Part shown: piece by piece, positions 48,123 through 49,043 of the stretch
Position numbering within the stretch: position 1 is the stretch's first letter
Layout of the letters: each line of letters starts with the position of its first letter
NCBI RefSeq assembly: GCF_000213975.1
Contig: NZ_GL892076.1
Location: 48,914-101,682 of the forward strand
Source of the DNA: Centipeda periodontii DSM 2778
GTDB lineage: Bacteria; Bacillota; Negativicutes; Selenomonadales; Selenomonadaceae
DNA: 52,769 nt
Reading direction: 5' to 3'
Position numbers and translations under genes: made by a program
The notes under the pieces: model-generated
Databases searched by the model: none
Seen by the model: only the letters and a program-made list of their open reading frames with translations
What the model was told of the DNA's origin: nothing

Positions 48123-48136
48123 GTTTGTGCACAAAC
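48123..48136. promoter_or_regulatory. 14-bp perfect palindrome, possible operator
   Basis: GTTTGTGCACAAAC lies directly after the third DnaA box and two bases before the NrdR-type box. It is a likely binding site for a dimeric regulator; which one is unknown. Confidence 0.4.
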
Positions 48137-48138
48137 AA

Positions 48139-48148
48139 CTATATATAG
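48139..48148. promoter_or_regulatory. NrdR-type core box
   Basis: CTATATATAG matches the NrdR core CWATATATWG exactly and ends 8 bp before the -35 hexamer of the nrd promoter. NrdR represses ribonucleotide reductase genes. A second box at the usual spacing is not seen. Confidence 0.6.
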
Positions 48149-48156
48149 ATTTTCTA

Positions 48157-48186
48157 TTGACGAGCACCCACTAGATGTTGTATAAT
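48157..48186 (+). promoter_or_regulatory. Promoter of the nrdD-like/nrdG genes
   Basis: TTGACG and TATAAT are separated by 18 bp. The leader of about 65 nt contains a GC hairpin (48222-48240) just before the ribosome site AAAGGAG. Confidence 0.75.
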
Positions 48187-48240: not shown

Positions 48241-48259
48241 GTAAAAAGGAGAATGCAGC

Positions 48260-48544
48260 ATGATCGTCAACGATATCAATGTCACAGTAAACGGCCTCTC
48301 GGACATCACTCCGCACGAGGTTGAGAACTACATCGCCTACATCGAGGGACAGACCCATGAGAAACTGGATCGCCTCTCCATCACGGGGACGGACGACGGT
48401 CGTGTCACCCTCGGCTATGAGATGCGCCAGCCGAAGTTCGAGCGCGTCCGCCGCATCACGGGCTACCTCGTCGGCACCACGGATCGCTGGAACAACGCCA
48501 AGCAGGCCGAGGAGCATGAGCGTGTCAAGCACGGACTCCACTGA
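48260..48544 (+). CDS. Stand-alone NrdD-like glycyl-radical-tail protein
   Basis: 94 residues. From about residue 60 the chain (FERVRRITGYL, then DRWNNAKQAEEHERVKHGL) follows the C-terminal end of anaerobic ribonucleotide reductase NrdD, where RVCGYLG carries the glycyl radical in E. coli; the matching Gly here is G68. The large catalytic barrel and the four zinc-binding Cys of NrdD are missing, and residues 1-58 match nothing I know. It overlaps nrdG by 29 bp. It may be a small radical-carrying partner or spare part for a NrdD encoded elsewhere, comparable to YfiD/GrcA for pyruvate formate-lyase. This role is an inference. Confidence 0.75.
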   Translation: MIVNDINVTVNGLSDITPHEVENYIAYIEGQTHEKLDRLSITGTDDGRVTLGYEMRQPKFERVRRITGYLVGTTDRWNNAKQAEEHERVKHGLH

Positions 48545-49043
48545 GATCCACATCTCAGGGATCGCGCGGGACTCCATCGTGGATGGCGAGGGCATACGGC
48601 TGACCGTCTTTACACAGGGCTGCCCACGCCGTTGTCCCGGCTGTCATAATCCGGATACGCAGCCGCTCGTCGGCGGGCGCATGACGACGGTCGGCGCGGT
48701 GCTTGCGGAAATCGACGAGAATCCACTTCTCACAGGGCTCACCCTCAGCGGCGGTGAGCCTTTCTTACAGCCCGCCGCGCTGCTCCCGCTCGCACGCGGC
48801 GCACATGCACGCGGGCTCGATGTGTGGAGCTACACGGGCTACACGCTTGAGGAGCTGCGTGCACAGAAAAATTCTGCCGTGGATGCCCTGCTCGATGAGC
48901 TCGATGTGCTCGTTGACGGCGACTACCGCGAGGAAGAGCGTGACCTTACGCTCCACTTCCGCGGCTCGCGCAACCAGCGCGTCATCGATCTCGCCGCAAC
49001 CCGTGCAACGGGTACTCTGACACTCTTATATACGGATGAATGA
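48516..49043 (+). CDS. nrdG: Anaerobic ribonucleotide reductase activating enzyme
   Basis: 175 residues. A radical-SAM activase that makes the glycyl radical on NrdD. The FeS motif CxxxCxxC is C36, C40, C43 in TQGCPRRCPGC; LTLSGGEPFLQ is the SAM-binding GGE segment. ATG at 48516 is chosen; GTG at 48522 has better spacing from GAGGAG and may be the real start. It overlaps the small NrdD-like gene and ends in a strong terminator. No full nrdD is in the window. Confidence 0.9.
   Translation: MSVSSTDSTEIHISGIARDSIVDGEGIRLTVFTQGCPRRCPGCHNPDTQPLVGGRMTTVGAVLAEIDENPLLTGLTLSGGEPFLQPAALLPLARGAHARGLDVWSYTGYTLEELRAQKNSAVDALLDELDVLVDGDYREEERDLTLHFRGSRNQRVIDLAATRATGTLTLLYTDE

Follow-up and report, generated by a model that had tools for sequence, protein, structure and literature searches.

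A two-gene class III ribonucleotide reductase is predicted in Centipeda periodontii, with the glycyl radical on a separate 94-residue protein

The DNA analysed here is a stretch of 52,769 nucleotides of Centipeda periodontii DSM 2778 (contig NZ_GL892076.1, positions 48,914 to 101,682 of the forward strand; hereafter the window), in which a small gene for a 94-amino-acid protein with the glycyl-radical motif of the anaerobic ribonucleotide reductase NrdD overlaps nrdG, the gene for a radical-SAM activase. Our reading of the gene sequences makes it very probable that this small gene encodes one of the two chains of a class III ribonucleotide reductase, the one that holds the radical. The two-gene layout, the finding of no other reductase, the operator-like sites shared by the two genes and the conservation were all computed directly. 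The initial annotation had offered two readings of the small protein, a split reductase or a spare part that restores an oxygen-broken NrdD, and the first of these is supported, given that the genome's sole large NrdD ends without a radical tail.

The open reading frame of the small protein runs from an ATG start over 48260..48544 (window coordinates; this and all features below lie on the forward strand unless stated) and is preceded by a ribosome-site-like AAGGAG at 48246-48251. Residues 1-59 (48260..48436) make up an N-domain with a predicted beta-alpha-beta-beta fold (block mean predicted local distance difference test score, pLDDT, 82-88), and residues 60-94 (48437..48541) form a radical tail equivalent to the C-terminus of NrdD. 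The last 31 of the 562 positions of PF13597 (NRDD) match residues 58-91 with 32.4 bits against a cut-off of 26.2, which is the sole Pfam match of the protein at E<=10, and in structure 8p23, the NrdD of P. copri, the stretch 707-738 aligns with residues 60-91 (E 5.4e-8). Gly711 is the radical residue of the P. copri enzyme, according to the part of the source available (PMC11226230). The predicted radical residue of the small protein is Gly68 (codon 48461..48463), within the motif RRITGYL. The 94 residues include no cysteine at all, and only the end of the NRDD profile is matched; the initial description of a protein that keeps the radical motif and lacks the catalytic barrel and the zinc cysteines is borne out. 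Folded alone, the protein reaches an overall pLDDT of 73.7 and a predicted template modelling score of 0.48.

The missing parts are found elsewhere in the genome. The source assembly (2.76 Mb, estimated completeness 100%) holds exactly two NRDD matches: the tail described above (profile positions 532-562) and one large gene (positions 1-532 of 562), which lies about 579 kb from the small gene on contig C1 (676417-678681; 1144-3408 in locus L001) and encodes 754 amino acids. The large chain scores 572.5 bits against PF13597, possesses the catalytic barrel, and carries an ATP-cone, the active-site Cys462 in an MGCRT finger loop and three putative zinc-type cysteines (724, 734 and 737), of which the small chain has none. 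It aligns with 8p23 as far as residue 702 and ends in ...CGYTGLIENECPHCHRKESSFGTMTVPRMKD, 17 residues past Cys737 and ahead of the radical loop, and no GYL or GYF remnant of a tail was found in the three forward frames over 1.4 kb 3' of the gene. The radical glycine that an NrdD carries in the C-terminal part of the same chain is thus absent from the large chain and present on the 94-residue one, which answers the question, raised in the initial annotation, of whether the genome's nrdD has a glycyl-radical tail of its own: a single large NrdD was found, and it stops before the loop. The large NrdD ends at profile position 532-533 in all 13 congeners as well, among the matches listed. No large subunit of a class I or class II reductase was found in the source genome, and the class I/II profile PF02867 matched in none of the 14 genomes of the genus, a control matching in 11 of the 14; because no class I/II reductase was found, the two pieces should jointly be the cell's only reductase.

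The same findings bear on the possibility that the small protein is purely a spare part, which would repair a complete NrdD cleaved by oxygen as YfiD does for pyruvate formate-lyase and would otherwise be dispensable. Small tails standing beside complete NrdDs in other genomes, or alone on viral records (both described below), are what such a part would look like, and for those proteins the idea fits. In the source genome and its 13 congeners, however, the one NrdD listed lacks a tail that could be lost, which would make the small chain a constant requirement; with no complete NrdD found here to repair, we consider a pure spare part very unlikely in this organism, unless the assemblies are missing a complete NrdD.

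The gene order is also consistent with two chains. nrdG (48522..49043, with a probable GTG start) is identified by TIGR02491 (136.7 bits against a cut-off of 126.1), and the overlap between the two genes noted in the initial annotation amounts to 23 nt if nrdG starts at the GTG at 48522, a start read by eye. In 14 of 14 genus genomes exactly one NrdG scores above the cut-off, directly 3' of the small gene, and the order large gene, small gene, nrdG occurs in Pectinatus (L118) and in genome G007. The arrangement in two loci of another lineage (L093 and L094) is an nrdR-like gene (recognised by eye), a tail-less nrdD, a small gene and nrdG.

Because all 14 genus genomes encode the 94 residues with Gly68, the small reading frame is not a chance one. 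The protein is identical in S. massiliensis, S. infelix and Selenomonas sp. FOBRC6 and 96-99% identical in S. noxia, S. flueggei and Selenomonas sp. F0473. Over 91 pairs from the 14 genomes the median ratio of nonsynonymous to synonymous substitution rates (dN/dS) is 0.013, with a largest ratio of 0.10 and a median dS of 0.55, so that purifying selection on the gene is strong. An alignment of 36 long homologues has Glu20, Tyr24 and Gly68 in every one of them, although the search that found these homologues was partly biased towards the tail. A decayed fragment of a once full-length nrdD, which the initial annotation had named as a possible refutation, might likewise be expected to leave a short tail away from the barrel gene. 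Its probability is nevertheless practically negligible, as the purifying selection and conservation exclude it: the gene has promoter-like and ribosome sites of its own and is directly followed by nrdG in every genus genome, the conserved N-domain is not recognised by Pfam as NrdD, and the large chain also ends before the tail.

Both halves are preceded by similar predicted regulatory sites. A sigma-70-type promoter-like sequence (TTGACG-18-TATAAT, 11/12; 48157..48186) lies upstream of the small gene in a region where the promoter search returned 3 sites against 0.8 expected in shuffles. Two NrdR-type boxes, each matching at 12/16, lie at 48136..48151 and, 32 bp downstream and within the promoter, at 48168..48183; they are the window's only sites at or above 12/16. 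The unlinked large gene has a pair of such boxes 31 bp apart (L001 1084 and 1115). Other Selenomonas show such pairs too, upstream of the small gene at L109-L114 (six loci) and of the large gene at L082, L210-L212 and L214 (five loci), and no paired boxes appeared in 60 simulated windows. The spacers between the boxes are 16 bp at the small gene and 15 bp at the large one, and most published NrdR sites consist of two boxes with a 15-16 bp spacer, as far as the source consulted in part describes them (PMC12051234).

Since the two pieces jointly cover the NRDD profile exactly once (1-532 and 532-562), it could be argued that they form one chain after all, through trans-splicing or protein splicing. 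We regard this as extremely unlikely: the genes are 579 kb apart, each with its own start, stop and operator-like sites, and a fusion would contain stray extras in the form of the large chain's C-terminal extension and the small chain's N-domain. Nothing like a split-intein part was apparent at either end, in analyses that included no search aimed at inteins.

The two-chain reductase that we favour could work as follows. The large chain (754 amino acids) has the ATP-cone, the barrel, Cys462 and the zinc-type cysteines and lacks a radical glycine, which the 94-residue chain supplies. The N-domain, which might conceivably mimic a portion of NrdD, would dock the small chain onto the large one, and NrdG would install the radical on Gly68. 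The loop could then enter the mouth of the barrel and hand the radical to the cysteine, in the manner of the fused tail of an ordinary NrdD. A likely benefit would be that oxygen destroys only the small, cheaply replaced chain.

Several points weigh against this interpretation. The radical tail folds without confidence when modelled alone (block mean pLDDT 49-58), and the N-domain has no significant match among Protein Data Bank (PDB) folds (best E 0.077). Control of both unlinked halves by a shared NrdR-type repressor site is predicted from the sites, which were scored against an assumed box consensus whose string found no match in the literature; the DnaA-box consensus applied below is likewise our assumption. 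Across the family, PF13597 and the small-protein profile each match in 145 of 151 genomes, the same six lacking both. This co-absence, which would speak for the pairing, is weak, since completeness is no more than 69-83% in five of the six genomes and both tallies include fused NrdDs. In one family genome (G023) NrdD extends only to position 478 and the small-profile match is weak. Finally, at least 9 of the 16 genomes of genus g21 have two different, divergent tail-less NrdDs and one small-profile match each (G021, G063, G073, G081, G115, G123, G126, G129 and G132), and four of these nine are 99-100% complete. With two tail-less NrdDs to one small gene the pairing is not one to one, and one radical protein would serve two enzymes in these genomes.

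Within the family, 11 of the listed NRDD matches reach profile position 560-562 and most of the long ones end at 529-541. In three genomes (G011, G030 and G052) a fused NrdD is the only NRDD match, and a second match to the small profile is present besides. The initial annotation had named homologues lacking the glycine as another possible refutation. Such relatives do exist, with an N-domain and FERIRRI or a close variant followed by a stop (six family genomes, five of them read), but in all six only as second copies beside a glycine-bearing one; none was seen in the source genome. These paralogues (L259-L263) might plug or regulate the tail-less NrdD.

Outside this family, too, there are small tail proteins. 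Using the small protein as query we obtained 80 named loci, of which 12 proved to be fused NrdDs and 18 Selenomonad-type small genes (9 adjoining nrdG), while 20 are small genes with an N-domain in other Bacillota, with neither nrdG nor a large nrdD in the stretch read. A further 27 are short genes without the N-domain (approximately 50-70 residues from the likely start) close 3' of a tail-less nrdD, 24 of them with nrdG adjacent, and three loci are of unclear class. Among 33 genomes chosen from behind small-gene loci, 18 have a complete NrdD and a separate small gene, truncated in one of them where the contig stops, many of the 18 being metagenome bins in which misbinning is possible; eight have a tail-less NrdD with a small gene, and in seven NrdD is absent or broken in the assembly. 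The combination of complete NrdD and small gene was found again in 7 of 29 further chosen genomes, all at least 95% complete, and in G349 and G325 the two lie on the same contig. An even draw of 129 genomes of the phylum contained NRDD in 109; tail-less NrdDs were present in eight (G000, G016, G154, G200, G216, G230, G266 and G274), each with a separate tail, and a complete NrdD with a separate tail in four (G183, G199, G225 and G261).

The loop type of the small tail was that of the resident NrdD in 24 of the 24 complete-plus-small genomes tested, out of 25 (G425, whose small gene is cut by the contig end, was excluded), a match that ancestry may partly explain. Within one loop type (17 pairs) the tails were nearer to their own NrdD than expected by chance (p 0.001), to which ancestry may again contribute, and within the other (7 pairs) they were not (p 0.11). 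The loop type bears on whether the small protein could instead carry a radical for another glycyl radical enzyme such as pyruvate formate-lyase. A second, weaker NrdG-profile match, below the cut-off and about 4.4 kb past nrdG, beyond the window, would fit such a carrier. The tail, however, matches NrdD only, with no match to the pyruvate formate-lyase-type tail (Gly_radical, PF01228) in the Pfam search at E<=10; the loop follows the resident NrdD, and the NrdR-type sites are common to the small gene and the large nrdD, all of which makes a carrier for another enzyme very unlikely.

The N-domain itself is less widespread than the tail. In an even draw of 398 genomes of the phylum its profile matched in 25 at E<=0.01, 13 of them with convincing small proteins, and of these 11 belong to the family itself and two lie outside it (G216 and G512). 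Against eight divergent small proteins left out of the profile, it matched two clearly (L091, 2e-5; L086, 6.5e-5) and two weakly (L087 and L090), and it missed L088, L089 and L093 (E 0.05-0.3) and L092 (unlisted). Beyond the family, N-domain small proteins are therefore uncommon, and the idea of one wide family is unsupported, because the profile rarely reaches further; spare-type proteins in other clades may have arisen independently.

Viral records add to this distribution. Three scans of IMG/VR yielded 71 loci, and among 64 short viral reading frames with the radical motif the N-domain was recognised in 27 (E<=1e-3), 26 of which have GYL or GYF. Whole-record searches of 30 of the 71 gave an NRDD match in 29, in each case by the tail alone, on contigs of up to 250 kb that may be fragments, none being estimated as 90% complete; at 14 of the other viral loci an NrdD barrel is present in the stretch read. 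Informative viral neighbours (endolysin, tail, DNA polymerase, RNA polymerase beta) were found on four of five contigs tested. Judging from their neighbours, the L107 element and a prophage in G199, a genome with a complete NrdD, appear to be one and the same, and the N-domain profile did not recognise the L107 protein. An annotated phage collection contained two weak tail matches to one small protein, so that the viral evidence is that of the IMG/VR contigs. At eight viral loci (L348, L349, L352-L356 and L358) the reading frame seems interrupted just where the GYL motif lies, possibly through an intron, and at several of these NrdD and NrdG adjoin.

Taken together, these distributions raise the possibility, to which we give about an even chance, that a family of roughly 90-residue proteins forms a detachable radical cartridge of class III enzymes. 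It would act as an oxygen spare part in anaerobes with a complete NrdD, be carried by phages (some on contigs >100 kb) to sustain the host reductase during infection, and have become the permanent radical subunit in Selenomonadaceae, even for two NrdDs per cell. The scarcity of N-domain small proteins outside their own family weakens this idea.

A quick tree built from 88 chosen NrdDs, with long branches flagged, requires ten changes between split and complete enzymes. Split enzymes of the Selenomonas type group together with support, their nearest complete relatives belong to the same family, and the order of gains and losses on this tree is unsure. The NrdD of G216 ends in ...FERIHRITE, exactly at the glycine position, with nrdG next and an N-domain small gene on another contig; no tail was seen in the 420 nt read past its stop. 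G216 plausibly represents an intermediate, a lineage with a complete enzyme and a spare that has lost its own tail. It may be that the N-domain small proteins began as NrdD spare parts and became obligatory once NrdD had lost its tail, the direction of this change being hypothetical.

The system resembles the class III NrdD/NrdG of P. copri (8p23) in its ATP-cone, barrel, MGCRT cysteine, putative zinc-type cysteines, RRITGYL tail, NrdG and NrdR-type sites, and differs from it in that the radical tail, joined to an additional N-domain, has a gene to itself and the large chain ends in a C-terminal extension of its own. The class III NrdD/NrdG systems of T. maritima and T4 are further comparisons. 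Class I NrdA/NrdB similarly holds its radical on a separate subunit, although there it is a metallo-tyrosyl radical, transferred over a long range from an unrelated small subunit. The class II pair NrdJa/NrdJb differs from class III in using cobalamin. As far as the source consulted in part describes it, that pair is likewise a two-chain reductase with a separate C-terminal part (PMC9669993). Phage nrdD genes with introns or inteins are also in pieces, but the interruption described in the portion of that source available lies inside one locus, in contrast to the two free-standing proteins here (PMC3653736).

The closest functional parallel is GrcA, a small stand-alone glycyl-radical protein with bacterial and phage versions. 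YfiD of E. coli and Y06I of phage T4 are described, in the part of the source available, as GrcA spare parts for pyruvate formate-lyase and as the only validated ones, spare parts for other glycyl radical enzymes being considered possible (PMC8683613). The small NrdD tails beside complete NrdDs and on viral contigs look like such parts, and the viral ones parallel Y06I (PMC8683613, in the same part). The tail studied here differs in being of the NrdD type, not of the pyruvate formate-lyase type, and in Selenomonas it is the sole tail and not a replacement; a complete target enzyme shares the cell with other small tail proteins and was not found in the source genome. No description of a two-chain class III reductase or of a small NrdD tail was found in the open literature, a scope that does not extend to subscription papers and reductase databases. 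If the reading is true, class III gains a two-subunit design resembling that of class I, and a natural two-chain enzyme would allow the radical chain to be handled alone. The occurrence of spare-like parts for an essential enzyme next to a lineage with a compulsory one makes repair, shared use and a path from spare to subunit testable. It also carries a warning, as the NrdD of such genomes could be mistaken for a truncated gene.

Two further features deserve mention. Upstream of the small gene and nrdG, between 47988 and 48122 (no strand assigned), lie three perfect DnaA-box-type sites, TTATCCACA, which are the window's only occurrences of TTWTCCACA; the looser TTWTNCACA occurs five times in the window against 1.48 expected, a number reached in 2 of 100 shuffles. 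All three sites recur at the same spacing in five of six other Selenomonas loci and two of the three in the sixth (L113), and none is present at the large nrdD of the source genome. The radical half of the reductase may thus be tied to replication control. In L105 (4104-7364), and also in G150 and G103, a large tail-less NrdD has an in-frame insertion at the active-site cysteine region, approximately 350 residues long in L105, which is probably an intein.
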